64,000 bases of DNA from contig OY540819.1 in the NCBI GenBank assembly GCA_961205875.1, forward strand, positions 7,194,501 to 7,258,500. The letters run 5' to 3'. This document shows positions 158 to 47,991 of the stretch, in pieces (positions within the stretch are counted from its first letter, which is position 1; each line of letters opens with the position of its first letter). The position numbers and the translations under genes were made by a program. Source of the DNA: Sialis fuliginosa (taxonomy: Eukaryota > Arthropoda > Insecta > Megaloptera > Sialidae). The notes beneath the pieces are model-generated. The model was not told where the DNA came from, did not search any database, and was given only the letters and a program-made list of their open reading frames with translations.

Positions 158-363
158 AAAATCATCTTTGATAAATAAATACATGTTTCATGTTTCTATT
201 GAATTAAATCAATGGTTTAATTAATAAAAATTTATATATTTAGCAATATTTTTAGTCGTTAAAATGAGATTTCCTTCTTAAGAGTTTTCAAAACGTTGGC
301 AACCCTTCTGTTATATCCCTGACCTCGCCTTTACTTTTTTTCAAGAGCCTCATTACTATCAGG

Positions 364-610
364 TTGCCAGACCATGCTCCATACACACACAAACACGCAC
401 GCACACAAATGCACGGGTTACGGCCCGGCGTTTGCAGCGTCCGTTGCCACGGTTACGACGGCGCGTGTGTCGTCATGCCGTCTACAGCGCTGTGGCAACG
501 GCGCACTGTGTGTGTGTGTGTGTGTGCAAGAGAGAGAGGGGAGGGGGGTCGCACGCACACGTCCGCCGCCCCAGCCCCCGCGTGTAGGGTGAGGCCGGTT
601 GCGGTAATTC
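364..610. promoter_or_regulatory. GC-rich island with CA/TG repeats
   Basis: Sharp rise in GC in an AT-rich setting, with a (CA)-rich start, a (TG) run near 505-525 and CCGCCGCC. It contains an RFX-like X-box variant, gttgccacggttac near 443-456, and several GGCAAC/GTTGCC cores. It lies more than 4 kb past the Shaker stop. It could be the promoter of a neighbouring gene; short open frames across it are composition effects. Confidence 0.35.
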
Positions 611-832
611 TACCGGCTGATGGGATTTTATTTGTTTTTATTTTTATCAGAATCGGGCCAATTTTAGACCCCCGTTAAAATTTTGTATTGAATACAGTGA
701 AACATCTGATTGTTTAAAAAAACTCTTTTTCGGTTTTGAGAAGTTTCACAATATAGTTATAAATACATTAGATTCATGAAAGAAGATCGTGAACATATGT
801 AGAAGGTTTTAATATGTAATTAATGGTACCTA

Positions 833-4658: not shown

Positions 4659-4819
4659 TCAGACGTCGGTTTCAATGCTCATGGCGTTGATGTTATTGTT
4701 GTGGCGCGGATTGCAATTCTGTTTCTTGGACAACTGCTCTCTCGTCAGCAAGATGCCCTCCTCTAGCTCCATGATGTCAGACGACGACTCTGACAGGGAA
4801 CTCTTCTTCATATGTTGAC
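4659..4819 (-). CDS. Sh: Shaker exon: C-terminal tail with PDZ ligand ETDV and stop
   Basis: 161 nt: two bases finishing Gly452, 52 codons and TGA at 4659-4661. It starts [20 protein letters not shown], as in Drosophila ([20 protein letters not shown]), and ends [18 protein letters not shown] is the class I PDZ ligand by which Shaker binds Discs-large at synapses. Between these, about 20 residues ([13 protein letters not shown]...) replace the long, Gln-rich tail of the fly protein, so the tail is far shorter. The SLSESSS run offers several possible phosphorylation sites. The acceptor is ttcccag. A donor-like ggtaagc sits seven bases past the stop. I found no coding exon further downstream. 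Confidence 0.95.
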
Positions 4820-7800: not shown

Positions 7801-10800
7801 TTAATATATAGACTAAAATTTGAAAGAATCTGCCGAAAATCGGGTATAAAATCGGTTATACTAAATCAATCAAAAAAATCTTACGTTCTTTACTAGAAAA
7901 TGTTATTATGAAGCTACAGTCAATCCGTTAAAGACTGAAGGCGCTAGGAGTGCAGGCAGTTAAAAAAACATGTTTAAAAAGAATGCTATTAAGTTTGAAA
8001 GCCACACCGGCGCTGACTTCGTTCGGAAAATTGACTTTTTCGGACATATTATAATTTTTTTCCTTCATTCTCCTTTTGTAGATAATTCTTGAATAGTTAA
8101 GTGATCATTTAAACCAATAAAAAAAATGGTCAATTTTTTTTACAAAGTAGTACCTCCTTTATAAAAATGCTTGTTTCTACTGCCATGGGTACGGGTTTCT
8201 TAAAATGTAAAGAGTTTCACACAATAGATTGCCCGTAGATATAAAATGTACCATTTATCATAATCAATAATTTTTGAAACCATCTTATACAGTTAGAAAA
8301 GAATTTTTTTATGACAGAACAAATATGAGAAGATTATATGAATATTAAATATTTAAATTAGATATCGATACTTACTAATTGTATACAGCTGGTAAAAAAA
8401 GGTTTATTTTTAGAAGAGTTTATTTTTATTTCTGTAATCAATATTCTTATTTTGCATTATTTTTAACACGAATGCTACGTTTTGAATTTCATTCATACTA
8501 AGATTTCTGTTTTTAATATTTCCTTTAGTTAAGAAGTCAATAATACAACAAGTGGCTAGGTATTTTTTGGGTTAACTTATTTTGATATAAAAATATTTCA
8601 GTTAACAGTTAATATAAGACATTCATAGCTGGATTGGCCCAGCGAGATACTGTAAATTTCTCGGATGCCCGTACCCTAGCAATAAAATAGAAAAAAAAAT
8701 AGATAAACTTAGATATTATATGTATATTATGAATGCCTTTTTAGAGTTCCGAAGAAACCCTATTAATCTTACTTTGTCGTCCGTCCGTCCGTACTTAAGA
8801 AACTTTAAAGAAAAATATTGTCGTACTTAATGAACTGTCTGGTCCCAGTACTGGATTTTAAAAGTGGGGAGCTCCTTGTGACCAACTTAAAAAAAAACCA
8901 CATCACTTTTTTTGTCTACACTCTATACTGCTTGACCCGTACTTTGACCGGTACTTGTCTATTATATCCCCGGCGATTTGAAAAAAATAAAATCACTCGG
9001 AACATAAAATAACTAGTTCTACAGATAGGCAAGTGTCATGTAGGTGTAACGTTAATTAGCGCCAATGTGAGTAAAGTGTGTACTATTAATTTGAATATTT
9101 TTAAATAGGTAATTAATGGGTAATTATTATACATATACATAGGTATTCTGTAACTAATTACATTATAAAAAGGCGAAGATTTATTTGTTTTGTGTTTTTA
9201 TTATGAATATAAATCATATTAATGTATTTTATTATGTATATATGCTTTATTGTACTTTTGGTTAATACGGAAAACATGGGCGGTCGCTGTCAGAATTGTC
9301 AATAATTACGTATATTTATATAGTTATTCAGAATAGAGTTTATTTAATTTGATAGAATTATTTAAAAACAGTTTGTTGCGGCGGTGACAGAATACCCGTT
9401 TTTAACCTAACGAAAAGTAATCAATTCGATTTCGCTCCAATAGATTGCCCTAATCAAGGATAGTTAGAAGTTATCATTCAAAAATAATGAAAAATATAAT
9501 ATGAATATTTAAACTAATAATACAAACTACATGACAGTTGTCTATCTGTAGAACTGGTTATTTTATGTTCCTAGTGATTTTGGTTTTTTCAAACCGCCGG
9601 GGATATAATAGACAAGTACCTTTTCCGGTACTTAACCCGGAGGCATTCATTAAAATAACAATATCATTATCACAATCATCAATCTTTACCCCGAAAAATT
9701 TAACAATATATAAACCACTCTCACTTTACCACTCTTGTCAACATAACAGCAATTGGTAGAGTGTTAACAACGCAAAGGCATGTGCCCTATCATAGTTGGC
9801 GCCGCATTTGCTAATTGTAAGTGGTGGTTGGCAACACTGGTTTCATTGTTTTGATCACGTGCCAGGATCACTTGGCAACCTCGCCTTAACCGTACACTGT
9901 GTTAACAATTAATATAACGCTGTTATTTCGACCGATGTATGTATTGTTGCAACAGCAACAAGTTCTGACATGTTGTCGGTAATTGAAAACAAGTTTCAAC
10001 ATGTTCGAGACGAAAATTTCACGTGTTCGATGATGATGTATGTAATTTTGTTGTTGTTGATTGCATTTAGTGAAAATTATGAGTGTACATGTGGGAGAGA
10101 GAGATGGGGATTTATTGGTTTTTTATGTGCAAAAATAAAATAGTAAACTATTAACCAATATATAATTCTGGTGTTATTACACAGTTTAAGTAAATTGAGT
10201 TAGTGATGATGTCTGCAACTTATACAAGATATTCTGTAATAATTCGGTTACTTTTTTTCTATTAATTTTTTTTTTCAAATTCCATGTGTTGATAAAAAAA
10301 CACAGTATTTGACTTGTTTACGACCAAAACATATGAAACACAATTTATCTGATTTTTAATGATAGTAAACACAATATAAAAAAGTATCAAGTTTTTTTAA
10401 GGTTTTGATAATATTAAACTGATTCAGAAATAATCCATACTTATTAATTGTATTAACAAATACATATATTTTGTACGTATCTGCCTTTGTACTAGTCCCG
10501 TCTCGTTTGAAAAACCGAAACAAGATCGCTTAAATTTTGACGAGACAAAATTTAAAGCCCTAAAAGCTCAGCACGATATAACAAAGATCTTACCTAACGT
10601 GCCGGGAAGGTACGGACAACTCGTCACGTGGTTAAAGTTCTGCGACTGCATCTCCTCCTGGTCGGTCTCGCGGTGGTAGAAGTAGTTGAAGTTGGACACG
10701 ATTACAGGCACCGGCAAGGCGATGGTCAGTACACCGGCGATGGCGCACAAAGACCCAACGATCTTACCCCACACTCCCACGGGCCTGTGTCGAGAGAGGA

Positions 10801-13800: not shown

Positions 13801-16800
13801 ACTTTACAACGATATGTAACTTCTCATACTTTTTATTGAAAAATATAACATTTGTTTTTGTAATAGTTTATTGTTTACAAATATTCATTTGTTATTTTGG
13901 TTGTTGTTATTGTGATTTTTTTTCATGACCTATTTAAATGTTTGTAATAAAATACTTTACAAATATCACTATTTAGTATTTCGACATATTTTCGAAAATA
14001 AATATTTTAAATATACTATAGTGACTCGTAAGTTAGGGCTTGTAAATTGGAAAATAAAAGTGATATAAAAATTCTAAATACACCAATCAATTCTACACAA
14101 AAAGTGCTTTAAGAAACCGCAAACCAAAAGTACCTATCTACTTTGACAAAAAAGTTACAACTATTTAAAGAAATTCCGAATTTTCAGTTTCTTGGGTATA
14201 CTACCTAAACGACAGAATTATTAATATTTTTTGATGAAGTAATACTCACCCCTTCCCTACAAATAATTAATCTCCTTAATAGGAAATCCCTATGCATTTC
14301 ACGTTTATCTTGGACACCCTGTATATAAATATTATAATTTTTTTTGTAATGGTAATTTTAGATACAAAAAAGAATGCCAGTATGTGAAGTCCGAATTGAA
14401 TTATGAATCAATAAAGAATAATGAATGTATTTTTAGAAATGGAAAGTATAATAAGTTGATTTCTACAAGTTAGAATAAAATGATTCGTGTTTCGTTTAAA
14501 AAGTGCAATTGTTGTAAAGTATACACCGCGTTATAATTTTAGACACAGTTAAGACAACGAATAGACCTTATTATCCAATACTACGTAAAACAACAATATA
14601 ATGTGATGGATATTAGAGGAACCCGTTCGATAAAACGAATTAGCCAGACAAGGATAACGCTTTGCGTGAACTACGTAGGAGTGAGGGAGAGAGTGGGACA
14701 GAGATGGATATCTTGGCGATAGCTCTGACTGTAGCAGTCGGTACGACGCATCGTTGATAGAAGAAAAAAATATAAAATAATAATAATAAAATGAAGTAAA
14801 AGTGATAGAGACGTATTATTATTGCTTATTGTGTTTTTAACTCACGTGGTCGTTGAATAATCTGCACAGTCAACAAAGAATTTTCTTGAAACTCAAAAAA
14901 TTGTAATATATAAATATAAATATAAATAATGAATCAATCTTGACTACTATGGAAATGTGAGTGTAAAATAATTATATTCTCATCATTCGAATTGTAAAAA
15001 TAAGAATATATAATATATGCACTGTAAACTACGGTGAAATAAATATTACAAGGATGCTCCAATATTGTTAGTTCTCATTCAATAGCAAGCCTGCAAAATG
15101 CGAAATTTCAGCATCAGAAACAAATAAGTAAAAAGAAAACGTTTTTAATATATATTAATGAGTGTAAGATTTCAACTGAATGGACGCATTTATTTATCTT
15201 AAATAAATGGTGTAGGTGCAATGTAAAAATTGAAAACTGAAAAATACGATTGTTTCGATTGGAAAAATAGTATACATTAATTTTGATTCAAAAAAGAAAT
15301 AATTTATCAATTAATTATGAATTGAGAAAATCAGATATATTTGTTTGGAAAAATAGAAATACAAAATAGATATGATTGATTTACTTATGAAAAGATTTCA
15401 ATATATTTTTATGCATATAGATATTTTATTTAAATAATACAAATATATATCTGATAGTTTCATCCAACTTTGAAGAACTAACAACAACTGATTAAATGTT
15501 AATATTAGTTTTCTTTTTGAATAACTGTTATAAATAAATATTTAATGTAAGCGTCAAATAGTAACTTGAAATTCTAAAGTTGTACTACGAATACATTATA
15601 TGGTAAATATATAAATAGTAATAAAATGCAGAACTAAATTATTATAAGCAGAATAAGAAATCACTACTAATTAGGCATGAAATGAAATAAAGTAAGGTTA
15701 ACACGTTAATCGCTATCAGTTAGATTTAAGAAACATACTTTCATTATTTGTTAAGTTTCAGTAATTTCAATACAGGACCGTTCTTTTCTATTAGACAACA
15801 AATCTAGGCAGCTATCTTGGGGTCAATTTTTTTTATAGGACAGACGTTTCATATTAAAGAAGAATTCAAAAACAGTTACATTTGCAGTTTTTAATTATAT
15901 TTAATTTTTGTAAATAAAGCATAAAACGGACATTTTTATATAAATAATGTAGTTTCACTATTGATTAAGTTAAATTTATGATAGAATAGCAGCAGCGAAA
16001 CGTTTTACATTTAATTTAAAACAGTGGCGTCGCTAAGGGGGGTGACACCCGGGGCGTAAATCGAGAAAGTCACCCCTCCCCTCTCGCCAAAAGTCAATAG
16101 GTTTTATTTTTTATACTTTAGGCAAGTGTCACCCCTGTGATTTTTAATGACAGAAAAAATATCCATTTTTTTAAATAAATGGGATGGTTATCACACCTCT
16201 TATAGACTTTCAATGACAACAATTTTTTGTGCACATTTTACTCCCTGGAAGCTTAAAATAACCTTTGAGGGTGACACCCTAGCCCCACCCCCCTTAGCGA
16301 CGCTGAGGATTTAAATTTGAAAGATTTCGTATTTTTATATTAATTGTAAAATTATCTGTCTCCATATCCCACTGCCGCTGTGATAGAATATATATTTGTA
16401 TAAATATTTTAGCGATTAACGTGTTAAAAGCATGCAACTCATATAGATAGATAGTGTGTAAAATACTTTAGTGCATAACAATGTAAATAAATTAAAATTT
16501 CGCATTTTGATATAAACGTATTTAAATTTGAAAGTAATGCAAGTGTTTGTATTAAAATTGAAAAGCAATGGAGCACCCTATCAAAGATATGAGCGAATTA
16601 AGAAACGCAAACGAAAATTGAATCCAAAACGAGCTATTGAAATAGTGAGATAAAACAAAACCAGTAATAAAAAAACCAAACCAAAAAATCATTAAGTAAA
16701 TAAATAATAAATGAAAATAAAAATCATTATTATCATCATCATTAATTTGTTCGTACGTCATGTCGCCGTATCCGACTGTGGTCATCGTAACAACCGCCCA

Positions 16801-19800
16801 CCAGAACGCGTCGGGGATGGACTTGAAGAACGAGTTCTCGCTGCCTGCTTCGGCGAAGTAGACTGCGCTCGAGAACAGCACGACACCTGCAAGCGAAGCG
16901 AGACATTCGTCAGAGAGCTAGGGTATGCGTACCTCATGTCGCCGTAGCCGACAGTTGTCATGGTGACCACTGCCCACCAGAACGCGTCCGGGATAGACTT
17001 GAAGAACGACTGCTCGCTGCCGGCTTCCGCGAAGTACACCGCGCTCGAGAACAGGATCACCCCTGCAACACGTCACCGCGACATCGCACGTCATCGCCAC
17101 ACGCGCGCGCGACAAGCGTTAGTACTCTCGTCGTACTATCGTATGTACCGCACTACACCAGTCAACGTGCAGCGGTTCACACGCATCTATCAAATATTTG
17201 CCTCTCTCCCTATACTTCCCACTGTGACTTGTACAATGTACATTCAAACAAACATTATCAACTGTAAAACTAGTCAAGATAATGGTTTCAATTTTAAACA
17301 AATATGTATTCTAAATACATCGTGGGCATCTGCAGGAAAGGGCAAATAGGGTATTACTCTCTTCAATATTATAAGTAATACCTAAACGTACAATTTTACT
17401 AATTTATATGTTTAGAACCGCTGCTTTATTCACTGATATAATGATAAATACACACATACAATTAGTACATCTTATTGAATAATAAAAAATATTTTTTTAC
17501 ATCAACAGACGTACTAACTATATAAATAATATAGCAAGGGTAAAAAAAAAAAACTTATTGTGTTAATTACTAAAAAAATTGCTATGAACTAATTTTTGTA
17601 AAAAAGGATTTTATCTCTGTGCGTCACTTATTAGCCCCGATATTATAAAGAATATCCTTCAGGTTAAAGTGGAAATTTTTCTACGATGTTTGTGATTTGA
17701 AAATAGCCATAGACAATATAACACAATTGTTGGCATTTCGTAGAAAGAATTTTTGTATAATATCGGACCTTATAAAGAAAGTGTAAGAACTAATGTAAAA
17801 GTATTTTACGCTAATAAGTTTAAAGTTACTAAAGCAAAATAAATAAAGATACTAAGCAATAGATTATGGCGTAAAATATAAAATAGATATGGTAGAGTTC
17901 TGATCGATCCGATTAGAAAATTTTTAAGTCGATGAGAGTAAAGGAAAAAGTATTAATAAATATTGTTTTCATTAAAATGGGGAAAACTATTGAAATAAAA
18001 TTTTCTGTAGATTAGAATGACAATAGTTAATATACTTATTGATCATATGTTTTAATTATATTTACAATGACATTTATAATTTTTTAGTAAAAACCATATT
18101 TATGATACTTTCCGAACTTATATTAAACGAAATATTTTTGTTTTGTTCGATAAATATGGTGGCTCGGACAATAGGTGTCAAACACATTTATTTTTAAAAT
18201 AGATTTAAAATAAATATTGAGCAGACGTTAAACGGGAAATGAACCTATATATTTTGGCACACGAGAAGAATGCCAATGGTAAATTAGATACGAAAACAAA
18301 ACCGCGTTATTTTGTTTCTTCGACAAAACAACTGACAATTGTATTTTTGTTTTCTCATTACTTTTTATTTGAACTTTATCATATGTCAAATAGTTCGTGA
18401 AATTGTTCAAGTCAACATAGATGAAAATTAATTGCATTAATTGACTCGCAACTGTCATAAGATTATGAAAATATATTTTTTTATTAATGTTGATTTTCCT
18501 AAATGACTAAAAGACGCTTAGCATTCAAATGAAGTTTAAAAATATATACTTTTAAATCCCCCTCCCCCCACCTGCACTAAAGATTTTTCTATTCAATCTA
18601 TTGGTTATGAAAATACTAAAAATAATAATCACACAATTCAAAACAAACTGTTAAAATATCAAAGAATAATAATACATATTTGCAATATTATAATTTAGAA
18701 AATCGTATAATTAGCAGGAAAACTAATGGATTTATAATTCCATTATTAAAAACTAATTAGCACACTAACTATTTATATCAGCGAATAATTTTGAGAAACA
18801 GTTTTAAAGATGAAAATAGATTTGTTCATACATCTTCCTATTTATTAAATAAGTCGACCAGAAGCCAAAATACGATTAATTCTTTCTTGTACAGGATAAA
18901 AAAACGTCCACTCTTTGTCGACATAATACTTTGTAACTATAAAATATAGAAATATCGGAAGGATTATAAAATGTTAGCTTAAAAAAACAAAAATTTTAAA
19001 TCAGTTCCGACGAATCATTTATTAGTTGTAACCCTTAAAATATAATATATTTCTTAATTATAATTTCTAAAACTTATTAAAAACCGTTAATGATACATTT
19101 TTGTATTACTTGACTTTTTATAAGATTCGTAAGTCATTTTTATATTTAACGTAATCATTAATTGTAAACACAATATTCGAATAAATTATGACGTTTTATC
19201 TGATTGGGAAAACACTCTTTTGTTTTTGTCTACTGAAAACAATTGCAATATTAACATCCAATTAGTAAATTAGCTCACTTGTATTTCAGAAACCATTGTT
19301 TTTTTTACTTAAAGGGTTACATCTACTTAACGATTCATAGAAATGATTTGAAATTTTAATACCCAAAATTAAACTTTATAATAAACATTTTAAGATAATT
19401 TTAAAGTTTCTATGATTATTTGTATCAGAATACTGTCACTAAACACAGAGCCGGTCTTAGCAAGTCTGATGCCCTGGGCGAGATTTACTTCCCTTTCCCC
19501 CCAAAAATTCTCAAAAATCACCGAAAATGTCATTTTTATATCATCTCGCACATTTTTTGATACATTACAAACAAAATGAGCCCAAATTGAACTCTCTACC
19601 ACTAATAGAATCGGATATATGTCGTCATGAAATTGGGTCTCTCACTATTGTAATCCAATAACAGAAAAAAAATAATTTCGAAAAAGACGCCCCCAAAGAT
19701 CTAGCGCCCAGAGCAACTGCTCTGACTAAACAGAATACATTTATGTAGTTATTAGGTTTGGCATTGGAACGGACACATTGTGCAATTTACAAGCTATATC

Positions 19801-22800
19801 ATACCTAACATTTCTTCCGTATCGCATTAAGCGATTAATTTACAATTATAAAAGTCGGTACATTAATTTTAAACTGACACCAATTTAATATCTAAATTGC
19901 TACGTTTTGAGTTACAGAGTGCCATTAACTGATTCAGTGCTGGCGTTACAGTCTATTAGATTTATTGTTATTTATCAATTAACTTTGACATCGCGCTATT
20001 TGTAAAGTTTACGGCCTTGATTGTAATGTATAGTCTTTATTGATAAGTGCATTTGACCTGTTTTCTATATCTATTGGAAATGGTCGTTTAAATAAATTTT
20101 GTCATTATTACTACTACGCAAAATAAAATATTCTTAAGTAAAATTCATTGTTTTTCGTTTTTTATAATTTCGATGTTGAAGTATTAAAAGAGGTTTTTAC
20201 GAGAAAATGAATTAATTAATTTTCCTTAATTGGGGAAGTACCAATTTTTAATTCAACAAAAAAATTATTATTAGTGTCTACATCATAATATGTGTCTTCA
20301 TTTTAATTGATTCCGAATTAACGAAAAGAATAATGGCACCATATGGTTCCATTTGCAAAATGTGTGAAGTCAATTTTCACTTATATAATTTTCGAAAATA
20401 TTTTTATATATTAATTCCACTTTCTGGTTATGATCCTGGACAAATAAATCTGACTATATTGACTCATCAACCTTATATAAGAACCTTTTTTTTATAAAAA
20501 GGACATTGGTATTTAATAATTAAATTATTATTTTTAATAAAAATAATATCTGCTCAGTATTTATAAAATATTTCAACCGATCCAATTGTTTATTTATCAT
20601 TCAGTAGAATTTTTCCTCACAATTATTGTGCACCGTTCGGTGCATGTGCGTTTGGCAACGCCGCACTAGCGTTGTCTTGGTGGCTGCTGACGTCACCGTC
20701 GAGCCAATCAATGCGCGCGGTAACTGTAACCATGACAACCGAGATGCTGCAGCGGCGTTGCCAGCGTGCGCGTCGGGCCGGCACGCTTACCAAATTATTA
20801 CATTTGAATATTTGCAGTAAAAAAAAAAATACAATGCATCGAATCGTACCAAAACTCTATTAGATAGAGATAGAGAGATGATGATAAACAGAAACAAGGA
20901 GAGAAAGATATAAAATAGATATCCTGAAAGTGAGAGATGATGATGCTGAATTTTCCGCTACTCCTGAAACGTGTAATATTTAAATGATACCGTGAGTGTA
21001 ATCCTTTGGCAATCACAAGTTTCACTGATTCAAAGCACTCACATCACAATAATACAATGCGGCACATATCGATTCACTTTTCTGGTTATCGTCACAAACT
21101 TACCGATAAACAAGAAAAATATGAGCAATCCGAGTTCTCGCATAGACGCTTTGAGCGTCCTGCCGAGAATCTGGAGCCCTTTGGAGTGGCGGGAGAGTTT
21201 GAATATCCTAAAGACCCGGACCAGTCTGATGACCCTGAGGATGGCCAGTGACATCGCCTGGTTGGTACTCTTGTCCTGCGGACTGACGGGCGCCCGCGGC
21301 AAGTTGAGGGTATCCTCCTCTTCGGCCACTACAGTCGCGAGGGTGATGAAGTAGGGAATGATAGCGATTATATCTATGATGTTCATCACATCCCTGAAGA
21401 AGTTGAGCTTGTTGGGACACGCGAGAAATCGTACCGACAGTTCGAATGTAAACCAAATTATGCATATCGTCTCTATGAGGAAGAACGGATCGGTTATGTC
21501 GGGCACCTCGTCCTCCTCGATCTTGGTGCCGTTTGTGGTCGTGTTGAACACCTTGTAGTGCTTGAACTCGGGAAGCGTCTCTAGGCAGAATATTACGATC
21601 GAGAGGAGGATCACGAACACGCTGATGATGGCCACCACTCGCGCCGCCTGCGAACTCTCCGGGTACTCGAATAGCAGCCACACCTTCCGCTGAAACTCGT
21701 GTGACGGCAACGGTTTCTCCTCCTCCTTGATGAAGCCCTCATCCTCTCTGAAAACACACACATATCATTAATTATGTGACTGTGATATAACTAACCTTTG
21801 ATTATGAATACGTAACAAGCTACCTTTACTGTTTCCAAAAATTTTCACCAAATGTCATTTTTTTAAGTTGTTTAAATTTCTTTTCAGTATAAGATCATAG
21901 TTTTATCATTATCATGTTTTGGTTTGTGACATCCCATAGACTTTCGTTGATTTTTTTCAATACAAATGAATAATACGTCACTTCTAGTCGGAGCTAAGCG
22001 GTAACAGTTTTAGGTAGTGTGTTAGGAGTCAATTTTCCTTATCTAAGGTACTAATTGTGGCGTAACTAGAGAATACTTTAATGCAATCACAGGTATTCAA
22101 AAGACATTGATAATACTCCTTTATATTTGAGTCAAATATTTTTTATATGAGCAAGGACCTGAATTTATTTATATATTAATATATTTAAGTGGTTATTAGA
22201 CAAAGGTAGATAAATATAATTTTTTTTAATGAAACGTTTGTATCTGAAAAAAATCGTTTACGAAGTTATATTATTTATTTATTAAAATAAAAAATCTCGT
22301 AGTTACGCCACTGTATACTACATCTCACACACACACGCTTGATTAGCACACACTCGTCAAAAATAAACGCATGTTAAAACAACTGGTGTATTAGGGATAC
22401 AATAAAAAAAAATCACACCAGATATATGGAGATTAAATACAAATACATTCTGGATTCTTTCATATCATATTTTAAAATTCTAAAGATAGCCATCTTAATT
22501 TAAATGTCTATATCGAATAACGATATAAAAATAATTATAACTACGTCCGTAATGAAAGGGTAAAGAGAGGTAAATTTGAAACGATAATTTTCATTCAATA
22601 ATGTTCAAAATAAACTGAAGCTGATGGTTAATGTTCTAATTAATAGGGCACTTTAGGGCACACAGTAATTAATTTTAAGAACTAAATAACTGTAATTATG
22701 ATTCAATTTAGTAATTATTTAATGATACATGGCGAAATATATCACATTCCAAATTTCCTATTACGCAAATATCGGGGTTAAATAGAAGAGGCTAATATAA

Positions 22801-31800: not shown

Positions 31801-34800
31801 AGTATTTTGTTTTCAATGATTTTATAGTAAATTCTTAATATGCATTAATCAAGTTTTATTTATAGGTATGTGCAATGCACAAACGTAGCCGTTCAAAAAG
31901 TTTCCGAAAAATTTAAGTGAGTAAATTTTGGAAATGAATTAGAGTTAAATCTGGACTCTAGCAATAAGATGGGAATAGCAACGATTTTCTCATTAATATT
32001 TTCGTAGGATCAGGGCCGTAACACCGGGGCAGCTGAGGCAATGCCCCGAAGTCCCCGAACAATGAGGATTTTTTTTTTTTTTTTGAAATCAGAATAACAT
32101 TTTTTTTTTAGTCAAACTCATTTTGTTTCAACACGGTACCATGTTGCCTGCAAGTTATCAACGAGTAATTTTTATTTTTAAACGTGTTTTTAGCCGTTTT
32201 GAATACATTTTTGAATTGGAACTTGGCACACTAATGGTTTTAGTTTTTATTTTCTTTAGGTTATGTAATAAAATTATAAGATTTTAAAATATTTAGTTTT
32301 ATAGGGAAATTCATAACGAAAAAAAAATGCAATCACTTTGGTGTCCGTCCGTTCGTCTGTCACAGACAATTTTCTCTGAAACTATTCGACGTAAAAATTT
32401 GAAATTTAACACAAAGGTAGTTTTGTTTACTTTTTTAAAATGAAATAATAAATTAAAAACACTAAAATCATTGTTTTCTTTTCAAAAATTTAATTTACTG
32501 GTGTAGTTTTGATTGTTCATAAAAAAATATAAATAACTAAAATTTGAAAGTTTTCACACTTTTATTGAAAAACTTTTTTTCGAAAAAAGTTACATACATG
32601 AAAATTGTTCAACAAAATTGTTATAAGGGGCCCCTCGATGACTTGCTACCCTGGGACCACAGAGATAGATAGATAAAGGGGGGGTGGAGCGAGGCTCCTG
32701 CACTTAGGCCGCTAGGGCCCATTGTGCCCCCTTGAGGTTACCAAGACTTCACTCTTTGAACAAGTCCGTTGCTTTAGTTACGGCCCTGGTAGGATAGCTC
32801 TTGAAGCATTGTCAGTGCGCAACACTAGTTGATTTTTGCGCAATAGTTTCGTTATCCAACGTGTTAAAAACTTCCTCAAGTATAGTTTATCTTTTGAATT
32901 TTTTTTAATTAATCGAATTGATATTTTTAACTTTTGGGTCATTGTAAGATATCCTATTAATATATTAAATAAGCTTTTATAAAACGATTCAGAACAAACG
33001 TGTTTCATTTTGCGCGCGAGTATGAAGAAGTTAATACCAACCTGAATTTGTTGGTGGCAAGTTCTCCTAACTCGTAGAACTTGATTTCTTCGGAGAAGAC
33101 GTCGAGCGGTACGTTGACGGGCCTCCGCAATCGGCCGCCGCTCTGATAGTAGTAGAGGATGGCGTCGAAGCTCGGCCGGTTGCGGTCGAAGAAGTACTCG
33201 TTGCGCAGCGGGTCGAAGTACCGGATGCGGCGCGCGGGGTCGCCCAGGAGCGTGTCCGGGAACTGGTTCAGCGTGCGCAGCTGCGTTTCGAAACGCAGAC
33301 CGCTCACCTGGAAACAAAAATCACAAAATTGTCAATCACGATTTGATTTGATCAAAATATACAACTACTAAACCATTGGATTATGTACAAAAAGAGAAAG
33401 TGGAATAAAACGGGTAAGTGCGTGTTGGGCACATGATAGGGTTCCGTAGGAATTCTCACTACGATTTATAAAAAATAGTTATTTCAAAATTTTTCATTGA
33501 AAGTATTAATTAAAAGCTACATTTTGTAATTTTTTCAGATTTTTTTGCATCGATATATAGTACATCGCAAGGCACATACAAAGTCTTAATTACGTCAATA
33601 TTGCGAGGTGCTACTGTAATGGTTGTTGGTGCGAGCAAATACAAAATTGTTTAAATGCAACGATTGAAACGTATGTAGGGAGTTATCTATTAAAATCTGT
33701 CGCAAACATTTCTCTATGTACTAATCGAACCCTACATTAATTTTATATATATCTTATAGTTTTGCCAGACGTATTTCATGCCGTCAGTTCTTTAGAAGCT
33801 TAAGGATAATAAAAATATATACATATAGTACGAAAAACAAGTTTCAATGCAAGATTTCGTCGCCATATCACTTGCAGTTATGCCTGCAGCCAGAAAAGGT
33901 TCACATGATAAAAAATAAAACTGTACAAAAGTTTCTTAGAAACCCTGGAGCGATTAGGACAAATCACATTCGAAGGACTTTTTATTTTAAAACATTCAGA
34001 TGTTAAAATGATTAGGTCCATTTAACAGTTGAGACAAGTGACATCTTGTCAATTTATTAAAAGAAAGTACTTCAATAATAATACCCAAATGTTGACTAAA
34101 TATTTGTACATGAATTTAATAAAATATAATTAATAGTTAGAAACAAAAAAAACATCTGCCAAGTAAATGCACAGTGCTTCCTCGTGCTAAATTCAAAGGT
34201 AGTTAATTATTGAACACACCTGATTATTTTTTATGTAAGTATACAAAAACAAAACACTATTTTTTAAAGCAAATTGAGATAAATCTTTGTAACGGAATAT
34301 TTCACAACAAACGTTGTAGATCTATATTATAGGAAATTGAATTCTCTACAAAAAAGATTCTATAAAATTTTTACGTAACATATGTCATTCTTGAGATATC
34401 TTGAAAAAAATAAATATTTTGGGATGTCACCCCTGCCCCTTACACACGATTTTGAAATGGGAGAGTCATCAAGCTAGACCCAACCATCTAACTAAGTTTC
34501 ATTAATATCGGTTCAGTGGCTCATGAGTTATGTGTGTGACAAGGATTCAGGGATCAGACACACAGACAGACACTGACCTGAAATGGAAAGATCAATTAAA
34601 ATTTTGAAATCGGAGAACAATTTTTTTGTCTCATTTTAAAACGATCACAAAGCTTCTCGTATCTTCGATATTACGAGGAAGCAACAACTGAAAGTTTGTA
34701 AACGAGTCTGTAGACTGTTTGTCACGGTTTTCGATATTCGTTGTCTGGCTATGTTTCCCAAAAGTCCAATAAACCAATAACAGAAATCCCCGCCGCCTTA

Positions 34801-46800: not shown

Positions 46801-47991
46801 TCCTGATATATAAACGTATGTACAAACAGTTTCGTGACATGGATGCGGTTTACTAACCGCAGTTTTATACGTTTTGTTTGATCTACAAACCTATCAATTG
46901 TTTTTCTTTCAGATGTTTCACATTTTAATTGAAACCGTATTTATTTTCTTTTGCTGAAATTGTTTATACAAGATTTTTTTAATCAATTGTCTTTTATATA
47001 AATGTAGTTCTTGAGAATGTTAATTTATTTAGGACTGTTTATATTTTGGCTCGAAGATCGGTTATATTTTTTAAAATTTGAAGATTAAATATTATCTATG
47101 TGTATACACGCAGAGAAAAAACATGGTTGCGACAATAATGTTTTGAGAGCATAATAATATGATTGTAATCTTTATTGCAGGAATCATAATTATAACCATT
47201 TAATGATAACTTCTCTTTTGTGACTACCATACACTATTAGTGTCGAGAACATAATATGTTTGATGCAACCATATTGTTTCGTTGACGAGAACATAATATT
47301 TTGGATGCAACCATATTGTTTCGTTGACGAGAACATAATATTTTGGATGCAACCATGTTGTTTTATTGCCGAGAACATAATATGTTGAATGCAACCATCT
47401 TGTTTAGAGGACGATAACATAATATGTTGAATACAACAATCATGTTGTTTCGATTCATTTTTTTATTTGTTATTAATAAAGTTCTGCTTCCGTATTTAAA
47501 GTAGATTGACACAAAACAAAGCTGTTTTTAGACAAACTCATAACAAAAATATAATTCACTCACTTTAGGTGTAATATGCAGTATTTAAAACACTGTGCAT
47601 ATATCTTTCACTTTGCAAACTTTACTGTAGGAACAATTTACCAGCGTATTTAATTAATAGAATATAAAATAAGAACTGAAAAAAAATGAAAGAATTCCGC
47701 CTCTATAAACTCACACTGCACATGACCACGTTACACTTAAAAAATAACTTTGAACATATTACTTGGTATAGTGAGCGGGACTGAAAAAAAACAAAAAACA
47801 CCCTAATGTAAATGCATATCCCCTCAAAAAAATCTGATAACTATTTGATAGTGCTATTTCTACTTACGTTGATAACGACCCTCTCACAAAAGTCGTGATC
47901 GTGTGGGATGGGCTCGAAGTGAGCGACGCCGGTGAACTGCGTGTGGGGATTTGGCCCATCTTCGTCTTGACTGCTCAATTTGGGCAGCGAT
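4659..47991 (-). CDS. Sh: Shaker voltage-gated K+ channel alpha subunit, gene model (5' partial)
   Basis: Model: join, on the minus strand, of 47991-47868, 33307-33042, 21747-21104, one of 17062-16933 or 16886-16757, 10784-10594 and 4819-4659. Every junction has AG/GT and compatible phase, giving 1516 nt: one base finishing a codon from an upstream exon, then 504 residues and TGA. The protein is a tetrameric, six-transmembrane delayed/A-type K+ channel of excitable membranes. Seen in order: linker, T1 domain, S1-S4 with six S4 charges, S5, pore with TVGYGD, S6 with PVP, and a short tail ending ETDV. Residue n here equals Drosophila ShakerB n+61 from S1 through the S6 gate, with no gap. The first exon(s), which set N-type inactivation in Drosophila, are not in the model. 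Family assignment is certain from the sequence; the 5' end is unresolved. Confidence 0.96.
5574..6123 (+). mobile_element. TA-flanked MITE, family A, copy 1
   Basis: Ends aggtactggcactagtcc and actggtgccagtacct, flanked by ta on both sides as in Tc1/mariner insertions. 550 bp, same orientation as the copy at 59281. Chance open frames inside it are shared between copies and are not genes. Confidence 0.85.
6276..6531. repeat. 256-bp hairpin
   Basis: atgactaaacgcttc pairs with gaagtttttagtcat. Arms of about 85 bases run through gacagattttgataaaaaac and ttattattctgatatg. The middle contains two copies of ggtcaatcatttt… Possibly a MITE without clear target duplication. Confidence 0.7.
7540..7555 (+). 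repeat. 16-base G run
   Basis: Uninterrupted G16 on the plus strand, so C16 in the Shaker pre-mRNA. A likely unstable mononucleotide tract and an assembly risk. Confidence 0.8.
8938..9645. repeat. Inverted duplication with about 480-nt spacer
   Basis: The arm at 8938-9045 reappears inverted at 9527-9645. Matching blocks include cttgtctattatatccccgg, ggaacataaaataac and ttctacagatag. Divergence is roughly one base in ten by eye. Confidence 0.75.
10594..10784 (-). CDS. Sh: Shaker exon: S6 gate and proximal C-terminus (ShB-like)
   Basis: 191 nt: one base finishing Thr/Arg388, 63 codons (residues 389-451), and one base of Gly452. It encodes [20 protein letters not shown], the S6 hinge and the PVP gate motif (P412 and P414, Shaker 473 and 475), then [18 protein letters not shown] and [17 protein letters not shown] with CAIAG resembles the Drosophila ShB version rather than the second S6 version, which as I recall it has GFWGK and CVVAG. 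Only this one version was found in the window. The acceptor is gacacag, the donor gtaaga. The first base decides the third position of the pore-switch codon for both upstream exons. Confidence 0.97.
11579..11842. mobile_element. Degenerate inverted-repeat element
   Basis: Left ggtgccagcatagacgtcga and right ttgacgcctatgggtgtc are imperfect inverted repeats; gagggcaga and tctgccctc pair further in. Old, family uncertain. Confidence 0.5.
13336..13343. promoter_or_regulatory. Perfect CRE palindrome
   Basis: tgacgtca in an AT-rich intron; no surrounding GC island. Confidence 0.3.
13512..14323. mobile_element. Foldback element with tacaggctgtcc ends
   Basis: Left tacaggctgtccaaagtaag and right ttggacaccctgta pair. 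Arms of about 300 bases continue (gtgaaatgcatggggatttc with gaaatccctatgcatttcac; gggcttt/gccctaac blocks), with a loop of roughly 200 bases and TA at each end. It lies wholly within the intron before the S6 exon. Confidence 0.82.
16022..16308. mobile_element. hAT-type MITE near the pore exons
   Basis: Left end cagtggcgtcgctaaggggg and right end ccccccttagcgacgctg are inverted repeats that differ by a two-base gap. atttaaa is found on both sides as a likely target duplication. It lies about 450 bp downstream (in transcription) of the Thr pore exon. Confidence 0.75.
16757..16886 (-). CDS. Sh: Shaker alternative pore exon, threonine form (TVGYGDM-T)
   Basis: 130 nt, same phases as its twin: two bases completing Gly345, 42 codons ([20 protein letters not shown] to TVGYGDM), then AC, which with the G of the S6 exon gives Thr388 (Shaker T449). 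Its protein equals the standard Drosophila sequence over this whole segment, so it is the ancestral or canonical pore. The acceptor is cgcttgcag, preceded by ctctgac as a possible branch point. The donor is gtacga, weak in the same way as the twin's. About 20 of the 130 bases differ from the twin, and roughly 15 of these leave the protein unchanged, which points to an old duplication kept by purifying selection. Confidence 0.95.
16887..16932 (-). other. 46-nt spacer between the two pore exons
   Basis: Begins gtacgc (donor of the Arg exon) and ends cgcttgcag (acceptor of the Thr exon). A branch-point-like ctctgac puts the branch A about 23 nt from the donor and a similar distance from the acceptor. 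This is shorter than nearly all spliced insect introns, so the two exons are unlikely to be joined to each other. Confidence 0.85.
16933..17062 (-). CDS. Sh: Shaker alternative pore exon, arginine form (TVGYGDM-R)
   Basis: 130 nt: two bases finishing Gly345, 42 codons ([20 protein letters not shown] onward to TVGYGDM), then AG, which joins the G of the S6 exon to give Arg388. It encodes the rest of S5, the turret, pore helix and selectivity filter. It differs from its neighbour 16757-16886 at three residues: Ile for Val347 (Shaker 408), Gln for Asn362 (Shaker 423, turret) and Arg for Thr388 (Shaker 449). The acceptor is ttgcag without a pyrimidine tract, the donor a weak gtacgc. It comes first in transcription order. 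From Shaker mutagenesis, a basic residue at 449 abolishes external TEA block and speeds C-type inactivation; that this exon has this effect is inferred. It should be used only instead of the other exon. Confidence 0.93.
19446..19735. mobile_element. Truncated hAT-like element
   Basis: Left end cagagccggtcttag and internal gccctgggcgagat, with an inverted counterpart near the right (agcgcccagagc). The right terminus is not clean. Assignment rests on resemblance of the left end to CAGRGCCGG-type hAT termini. Confidence 0.45.
20626..20800. promoter_or_regulatory. GC-rich intronic island with full CRE palindrome
   Basis: GC-rich block about 0.3-0.5 kb inside the intron after the S1-S5 exon. It has tgacgtca at 20688-20695, ggcaac near 20654 and gttgcc near 20757. 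No splice-flanked coding frame was found, so an enhancer or internal promoter is the better reading. Confidence 0.4.
20688..20695. promoter_or_regulatory. Perfect CRE palindrome
   Basis: tgacgtca, the CREB/ATF full site, inside a GC-rich island. Confidence 0.45.
21104..21747 (-). CDS. Sh: Shaker exon: voltage sensor S1-S4, S4-S5 linker and start of S5
   Basis: 644 nt, residues 130-344 plus the first base of Gly345. S1 spans about residues 167-188, S2 217-239, S3 250-270, S4 297-316. S4 charges R301, R304, R307, R310, K313 and R316 correspond to R362, R365, R368, R371, K374 and R377 of ShakerB. The S1-S2 loop has two N-glycosylation sequons, N198-T-T and N202-G-T, at the positions used in Drosophila (N259, N263). 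The S4-S5 linker [13 protein letters not shown] and the first part of S5, LLIFFLFI, close the exon. The acceptor is ttttcag, the donor gtaagt in phase 1. No change at a known gating residue is visible. Confidence 0.98.
27626..28282. mobile_element. Non-autonomous hAT-type element
   Basis: Ends cagggctgtattta and taaatacggtcctg form an inverted repeat. Flanks gttatact and atcatact are a decayed 8-bp duplication. Interior has gtagcccatgggcc and its counterpart gtagggcccg near the right end. No coding capacity. Confidence 0.72.
29305..29420. promoter_or_regulatory. GC-rich island with NRF-1-like palindrome
   Basis: Contains gcgcatgcgc at 29327-29336, the core of the NRF-1/Ewg site, followed by more CpG-rich sequence. 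It may be an internal promoter or a remnant of a dispersed repeat. Confidence 0.35.
32011..32788. mobile_element. Non-autonomous hAT-type element, longer relative of 833-1062
   Basis: Begins cagggccgtaac and ends gttacggccctg. It is flanked by gtaggat on both sides (32004-32010 and 32789-32795), with the eighth base of the duplication changed. Interior AT-rich, no transposase frame. It ends about 250 bp past the T1 exon in transcription order. Confidence 0.8.
33042..33307 (-). CDS. Sh: Shaker exon: T1 tetramerisation domain
   Basis: 266 nt, 88 codons plus two bases (residues 42-129 of the model). It starts [13 protein letters not shown] and ends ELATNKF, with an Arg codon split AG|A across the next junction. 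It holds nearly the whole BTB-like T1 domain that makes Shaker-family subunits assemble only with their own kind: [27 protein letters not shown] and [31 protein letters not shown] are all visible. The acceptor is gtttccag, the donor gttggt. The exon is strikingly GC-rich against its introns, typical of conserved coding exons in an AT-rich genome. The start codon seen by simple ORF calling is the GTG (Val) at the acceptor and is not a translation start. Confidence 0.97.
34380..34690 (+). repeat. LINE-tail-like repeat fragment
   Basis: Contains ttaatatcggttcagtggct and a cagacagaca-type stretch. It is followed by a block of about 97 bases (34588-34684) nearly identical to 64-157. Confidence 0.45.
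35923..36663 (+). repeat. Dispersed repeat with LINE-like tail
   Basis: Opens actagcgcattggcccggtg and closes with atcggttcagtaactcc and an AT-repeat run ending tatatag. This is the pattern of a very common insect dispersed repeat. A 13-bp unit with core caacatg is repeated three times at 35985-36023. No long frame. Confidence 0.5.
36972..37156. mobile_element. 185-bp hAT-type MITE
   Basis: Terminal inverted repeats tagagattggaaaaatagtt and aactatttttccaatctcta. Exact 8-bp target duplication gtgataat at 36964-36971 and 37157-37164. Intact ends and duplication suggest a fairly recent insertion. Confidence 0.9.
38010..38253. mobile_element. Foldback MITE with tacacgggtagaaaag ends
   Basis: Left tacacgggtagaaaagttga and right tcacttttctacctgtgta pair, and pairing continues through gacttgggccaagaaa into the interior, so most of the 244 bp can fold back. 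TA at both ends suggests a Tc1/mariner-type target. Confidence 0.75.
39041..39502 (-). mobile_element. TA-flanked MITE, family A, copy 2
   Basis: Inverted relative to copy 1: starts agtactggcaccagttatgg, ends actggtgccagtact. The right-hand ta is lost. 462 bp. Shares tttactgtttttgtgattga and ggggtcatatc blocks with the other copies. Confidence 0.83.
39650..39775. promoter_or_regulatory. Intronic island with E-box palindromes and a CRE-like site
   Basis: Has cacgtg at 39692-39697, the ten-base palindrome gtcacgtgac at 39721-39730 and ctacgtcacc (CRE-like) shortly after, all in a locally GC-rich stretch of the T1-proximal intron. Confidence 0.4.
39721..39730. promoter_or_regulatory. CLEAR-type E-box palindrome
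   Basis: gtcacgtgac is the exact MITF/TFE (insect Mitf) consensus palindrome. Confidence 0.4.
42438..42824. mobile_element. TA-flanked MITE with cagtcgcctgca ends
   Basis: Left cagtcgcctgca and right tgcaggtgactg are inverted repeats flanked by ta. 387 bp of non-coding AT-rich sequence; mariner-type by its ends. Confidence 0.68.
43781..44406. mobile_element. Near-complete foldback element (626-bp hairpin)
   Basis: Ends ttagggtgttttttaa and aaaaaaacaccgtaa. The two arms of about 305 bases pair along nearly their whole length: cggtcccgcagacctg with its counterpart, gtggacggcgcaaac with gtttgcgccgtccac, and onward to attatcataaaaa / tttttatgataat around a loop of about 11 bases. No coding capacity. 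Confidence 0.85.
44600..44860. promoter_or_regulatory. GC-rich island, possible internal promoter
   Basis: CpG-rich block about 3 kb into the first intron seen here. On the minus strand it has caagatggcgcc (44745-44756), close to the YY1/TISU element found just after some start sites. It also has a 31-codon frame from an ATG at 44805 to a phase-0 cag|gtgtca at 44713. No transcript evidence is available. Confidence 0.35.
45060..45540 (-). mobile_element. TA-flanked MITE, family A, copy 3
   Basis: Starts agatactggcaccagttttg, ends actggtaccagtacct, flanked by ta. 481 bp, same orientation as copy 2 and closely similar to it throughout. Confidence 0.85.
46360..46367. promoter_or_regulatory. Perfect CRE palindrome
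   Basis: tgacgtca followed by cgcg, 1.5 kb downstream (in transcription) of the N-terminal exon. Confidence 0.35.
47245..47452. repeat. 42-bp minisatellite, about five units
   Basis: Units start gagaacataatat at 47245, 47287, 47329 and 47371, with a weaker one at 47413. The core is tgcaaccatattgtt. It lies about 420 bp inside the intron after the N-terminal exon. It gives a repetitive 14-residue open frame on the minus strand, which is not a gene. An inverted relative of the unit occurs at about 47,121-47,160. Confidence 0.85.
47868..47991 (-). CDS. Sh: Shaker exon: common N-terminal linker before T1
   Basis: 124 nt, one base completing an upstream Gly codon, then 41 codons starting [12 protein letters not shown] and ending [17 protein letters not shown] and [18 protein letters not shown] match the constant region that follows all alternative N-termini in Drosophila Shaker. 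The last seven residues begin the first strand of T1. The acceptor reads ttttcag and the donor gtaagt (phase 0). The stretch between ([12 protein letters not shown], residues 12-23) differs from the Gly-rich Drosophila spacer. Because the exon starts mid-codon, it cannot be the first coding exon. An open frame continues upstream to an ATG at 48053, but that segment holds the splice acceptor and reads as intron. Confidence 0.95.

Follow-up and report, generated by a model that had tools for sequence, protein, structure and literature searches.

The 64,000-nucleotide stretch of Sialis fuliginosa contig OY540819.1 analyzed here (positions 7,194,501 to 7,258,500 of the forward strand; the window, from whose first base all coordinates below are counted) contains most of a Shaker (Kv1) voltage-gated potassium channel gene on its minus strand. 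The product comprises a T1/BTB domain, segments S1–S6 and the TVGYGD filter, and its best match was Shaker in a comparison that covered solved structures only. The pore is encoded twice in this gene, by exon A (16933..17062) and exon B (16757..16886), which are adjacent and are read, like all gene features given below, from the minus strand. Judged from the sequence, the two exons quite probably represent a tandem duplication that gave rise to mutually exclusive exons, of which B encodes the standard T449 pore and A an outer mouth with Arg449 and Gln423.

Exons A and B encode the same stretch of Shaker. Each is 130 nt long (2 + 126 + 2 nt), is flanked by AG upstream and GT downstream, and has the same phase. 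Their common upstream partner is the exon for S1 to S5 (21104..21747; Pfam Ion_trans, 8.3e-31), whose last base is the G of codon 406, and their common downstream partner is the S6 exon (10594..10784), which gives the G of codon 449. These exons were traced by their borders and the joined frame, and A and B also by their translation. The coordinates, frames and phase of the two pore exons given in the original prediction were exact. When the traced exons were joined, either A or B gave an open product of 504 residues with the C-terminus ETDV. Joining A to B, or skipping both, shifted the frame and led to stops within the S6 exon. The pair thus has the features of tandem exclusive exons: homologous neighbors in the same phase, with a frame that is open with either one and closed with both or neither.

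The two exons were 84.6% identical, and 17 of the 20 differing bases (of 130) were at third codon positions. Eighteen of 44 codons differed, 15 of them silently, which left three residue differences from B to A: V408I, N423Q, and T449R. The peptide of exon B was identical to that of fly Shaker over the whole pore exon in the alignment to solved chains. The numbering was anchored on the solved fly chain 9nes_A, whose position 407 corresponds to the exon's first Val; the other chains in the alignment table were offset constructs. With this anchor, the substitutions and their Shaker numbers were as originally predicted. Flank identity was 60% upstream and 70% downstream over 10 nt from the exon edges, 40 and 50% over 20 nt, and 27.5 and 37.5% over 40 nt. 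Because the flanks were alike only beside the splice sites, the duplicated unit was exon-sized. Tandem Repeats Finder marked the pair independently (16752-17068, period 176). No third or degenerate copy of the pore exon was found in the 64 kb window or its introns by blastn and tblastn with E up to 10, the other matches having E of at least 3.

The spacer between A and B is only 46 nt long (16887..16932). A motif scan found a single match to the branch-point pattern in it, CTGAC, whose candidate branch-point A at 16910 lies 23 nt from the donor of exon A and 24 nt from the acceptor of exon B. A 46-nt spacer with a branch point in such a position would be too tight for both sites to be used simultaneously. 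Since inclusion of both exons or neither breaks the frame, and the spacer is this short with a tightly placed branch point, A and B are probably mutually exclusive in the mRNA. The simplest mechanism would be steric exclusion, in which U1 on the donor of A and U2 on the branch point of B could not act together across 46 nt. Messages with both exons or neither would be out of frame and presumably subject to degradation, so that leaks would be removed. Upstream of exon A, another candidate branch-point A was placed at 17119, in a TACTAAC motif 57 nt before the exon, and no AG occurred between this motif and the acceptor AG. The pyrimidine content of the acceptor tract was 45% for A, the poorest of the five acceptors scored, and 65% for B. 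Exon A had a rough donor score of 7.9 and exon B one of 3.6, the weakest of the five donors scored.

RNA pairing was examined by a local fold and by six duplex scans, in which the spacer and the 60-nt flanks on each side were compared with both introns using 15 simple shuffles each. No pairing that stood out from dinucleotide shuffles was found. One candidate, a long-range pairing between the GC-rich segment 20654-20753 and the 60 nt that precede exon A, was ~3 standard deviations beyond its simple shuffles. It was rejected as an effect of GC content, since equal strength was reached by 21 of 300 dinucleotide shuffles of the target and, once self-folding was taken into account, by 76 of 100.

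Over the 44 codons, the Nei–Gojobori (NG86) estimates between A and B were dN 0.045 and dS 0.89, which argued against a dead copy. Maximum likelihood (ML) gave dN 0.037 and dS 2.7; with so few codons, all of these values are rough. When 20 random substitutions were placed in the exon, the mean number of residue changes was 14.0 and the lowest 7; none of the 20,000 trials gave three or fewer. This suggests that both pore exons have been kept by selection. The NG86 dS, being below saturation, mildly favors a younger duplication or gene conversion. The ML dS gives no such support for a young age.

The expected effect on the channel centers on residue 449, to which PMC9271579 ascribes a critical role in C-type inactivation. 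In two further sources, T449A, T449E, and T449K are listed as inactivation-enhanced (PMC7943188), and T449K is reported to inactivate fast in a P/C-type manner (PMC4977472). The original statement that this residue governs C-type inactivation agrees with all three. According to PMC3705375, T449 lies at 4.4 and N423 at 5.0 and 6.2 from the peptide in the modelled kappa-PVIIA complex (distances as tabulated), and T449Y renders Shaker insensitive to kappa-PVIIA. Because of these short modelled distances, two of the three substitutions would fall on or near the blocker surface. The external-entryway residue R487 of Kv1.5 is stated to determine that channel's external tetraethylammonium (TEA) sensitivity (PMC8293965). 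T449R itself was not found among the matches listed in a literature search on residue 449.

Extrapolating from the published mutants, four Arg449 residues would ring the outer vestibule and remove the T449-D447 contact. Arg449 would weaken the block by external TEA and cationic peptides and would change, probably speed, C-type inactivation, and mixed A/B tetramers would be intermediate. Given the slow inactivation of Kv1.5 (see below), the loss of TEA and peptide block is predicted with more confidence than the faster inactivation. The third substitution, V408I, is probably neutral and not the point of the switch, because the aligned Kv1.2 and Kv1.3 chains carry Ile at this position; the vertebrate-like Kv1 on an Epulopiscium contig (see below) has it as well. 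Two channel types from one gene had been proposed at the outset. The Shaker identity and the intact, exchangeable exons support this in part, and the functional difference is extrapolated from published mutants.

Several points weigh against this interpretation. The branch points come from a motif scan, and the splice strengths from an approximate, hand-entered matrix. The local RNA fold of 16740-17200 was ordinary (z -0.23, with 43 of 100 shuffles as good). When only one copy was allowed to drift, three or fewer residue changes were obtained in 0.15% of trials with 10 neutral changes and in 2.1% with 8, and this rose to 35% with 5 neutral changes. These simulations make it unlikely that one copy was neglected for long, and relaxed constraint on one copy for a brief part of its history is possible. 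For the channel, Kv1.5 inactivates slowly, and its natural Arg, R487, presumably aligns with Shaker 449, which makes the direction of the inactivation change uncertain for Arg.

Codon 449 spans the junction with the S6 exon: its first two bases are AG in A and AC in B, and its third is the G that opens the S6 exon, at 10784, so the codon is AGG (Arg) with A or ACG (Thr) with B. Residue 449 is therefore set by the pore exon's final base, G in A and C in B, which is at the same time donor position -1. As one base serves both, the Arg form comes with the stronger donor. The shared base could couple splice choice to channel type, or the Arg could simply follow from donor strength. In the latter case the switch would serve splicing and not physiology: G would make the consensus AG/GT donor with Arg449 as a tolerated by-product, and C would give Thr and a weak donor. 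The straddled codon fits this explanation, as does the donor of 7.9 in A against 3.6 in B, where the pyrimidine tract of A is the poorer (45% against 65%). However, residue 423 differs too (Q in A), and N423 is close to the bound peptide blocker in the published model (PMC3705375). Arg also replaces a residue called critical for inactivation (PMC9271579), so neutrality is unlikely. We regard a role in splicing alone as improbable.

Another explanation is that one of the two exons, A or B, is silent and never enters the mRNA of the animal. Both exons are known here from genomic sequence, the acceptor tract of A was the poorest of the five scored, and a brief neutrality of one copy is compatible with the drift simulations. 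On the other hand, borders, phase, and reading frame are all intact, 17 of the 20 differences fall at third positions, none of the 20,000 random trials was as conservative, and A retains its TACTAAC without an AG before the acceptor. A silent copy thus seems quite improbable. Least credible of all is an assembly artefact in which two alleles or two loci were merged into a spurious tandem. Assemblies are known to be error-prone at tandem duplicates, but misassembled alleles would share their flanks and be far closer in the exon, whereas these exons are 84.6% identical between flanks that are unrelated beyond the splice sites. Taken together, the pore exon pair is likely to be real and functional.

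Three further exons of the gene were traced. The N-terminal cytoplasmic exon (47868..47991), which ends in ERVVIN, was placed by its AG/GT borders, its in-frame join to the T1 exon and the alignment to fly Shaker. The T1 (BTB) exon (33042..33307) was placed by its borders, and the open reading frame that contains it matched Pfam BTB_2 (3.6e-25). The C-terminal exon (4659..4819) was placed by the joined frame and ends in SIETDV and a stop. All exon-exon borders traced among the five exons besides the pore pair were AG/GT. Residues 1-477 of the A-form product matched solved fly Shaker chains with E about 1e-302. The first coding exon or exons of Shaker were not found in the window, where a search for the ball-peptide motif gave no match.

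Other elements were observed along the gene. A 42-base unit forms a tandem array at 47244-47437 (4.6 copies, 89% matches), ~430 bases 3′ of the N-terminal exon in gene orientation. The intron between S5 and the pore contains a GC-rich island at 20640-20790 on the minus strand, with 55-63% GC in a window of 28.5% GC and no recognizable coding frame. The island contains TGACGTCA (20695), GTTGTCATGGTTAC (20739), and ATTGG (20708), of which GTTGTCATGGTTAC is RFX-like, and it is therefore a candidate promoter or enhancer. The strongest GC island of the window (273-713, up to 69% in 150 bases) lies beyond the C-terminal exon. The Rfam family K_chan_RES (RF00485, potassium channel RNA editing signal) matched 10691-10794 on the minus strand, in the S6 exon and across its acceptor, and scored 60 bits (cut-off 51). 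Sixteen hairpin positions of this match were non-standard pairs, and it may be plain coding similarity; alternatively, it could point to A-to-I editing in S6, beside the site of the pore-exon choice. Recoding of Sh has been reported in a bug (PMC10937787).

In the model potassium channel, the residue at position 449 has been studied intensively. If the two forms are made as proposed, a natural T/R splice pair at this position would provide an in vivo test of the role of the residue in neurons, and findings on block and inactivation in fly Shaker would not be transferable to all insects. The pair would also allow a single origin of Shaker pore-exon switching in Pancrustacea to be tested against repeated origins.

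A search of the open-licence literature by title and start of abstract found no report of Shaker pore-exon splicing in insects among the papers listed, and this speaks only weakly for a true absence. Both isoforms may well be present already in automatic genome annotations. The passages taken from PMC5096308 and PMC4034351 held nothing bearing on the exons. No relatives were found among viral contigs, and 10 loci were found among genome contigs. Nine of these were weak matches (23-33% identity) in records titled bacterial, and eight of the nine had the potassium-filter motif. The tenth (60% identity), around 9151-9900 of the Epulopiscium contig, was a vertebrate-like Kv1 in one open frame and a single exon, and it is probably host fish DNA contaminating a single-cell assembly. 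None of the ten was informative as a comparator for insect pore exons.

Drosophila Shaker shares the channel type with the gene described here, and its pore peptide is identical to that of exon B. Its solved chains include 7sip, 8teo and 9nec; the three alignments to fly chains that were inspected show the T449 form, and fly Shaker is not known to have a second pore exon. In vertebrate Kv1 paralogues, position 449 is likewise a variable outer-mouth residue, with Y in Kv1.1, V in Kv1.2, and H in Kv1.3 (PMC3705375) and R487 in Kv1.5 (PMC8293965). There, outer-mouth diversity comes from separate genes, whereas here it would come from two exons of one gene.

The closest parallel is the spiny lobster Panulirus interruptus. 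Pore I and pore II of Panulirus shaker are reported to be two exons that each span the end of S5 to the filter, as A and B do; the likeness concerns exon content. A 1997 report by Kim et al. (J Neurosci 17:8213) is said to describe the lobster forms as differing in activation, inactivation, rectification, and block by kappa-conotoxin PVIIA, and the form without a pore exon was reportedly non-functional. The precedent named in the original prediction does exist, as a title on pore-exon splicing in shaker of P. interruptus is cited in the reference list of PMC2727049. By analogy, the A/B pair looks like an insect example of the lobster-type Shaker pore-exon swap. Only tentatively can it be speculated that the A/B pair goes back to a duplication that predates the split of insects from crustaceans and was lost in flies; the pair would then be an old, built-in switch that controls C-type inactivation and resistance to blockers, with one base setting both residue 449 and donor strength and thereby linking channel physiology to splice choice.
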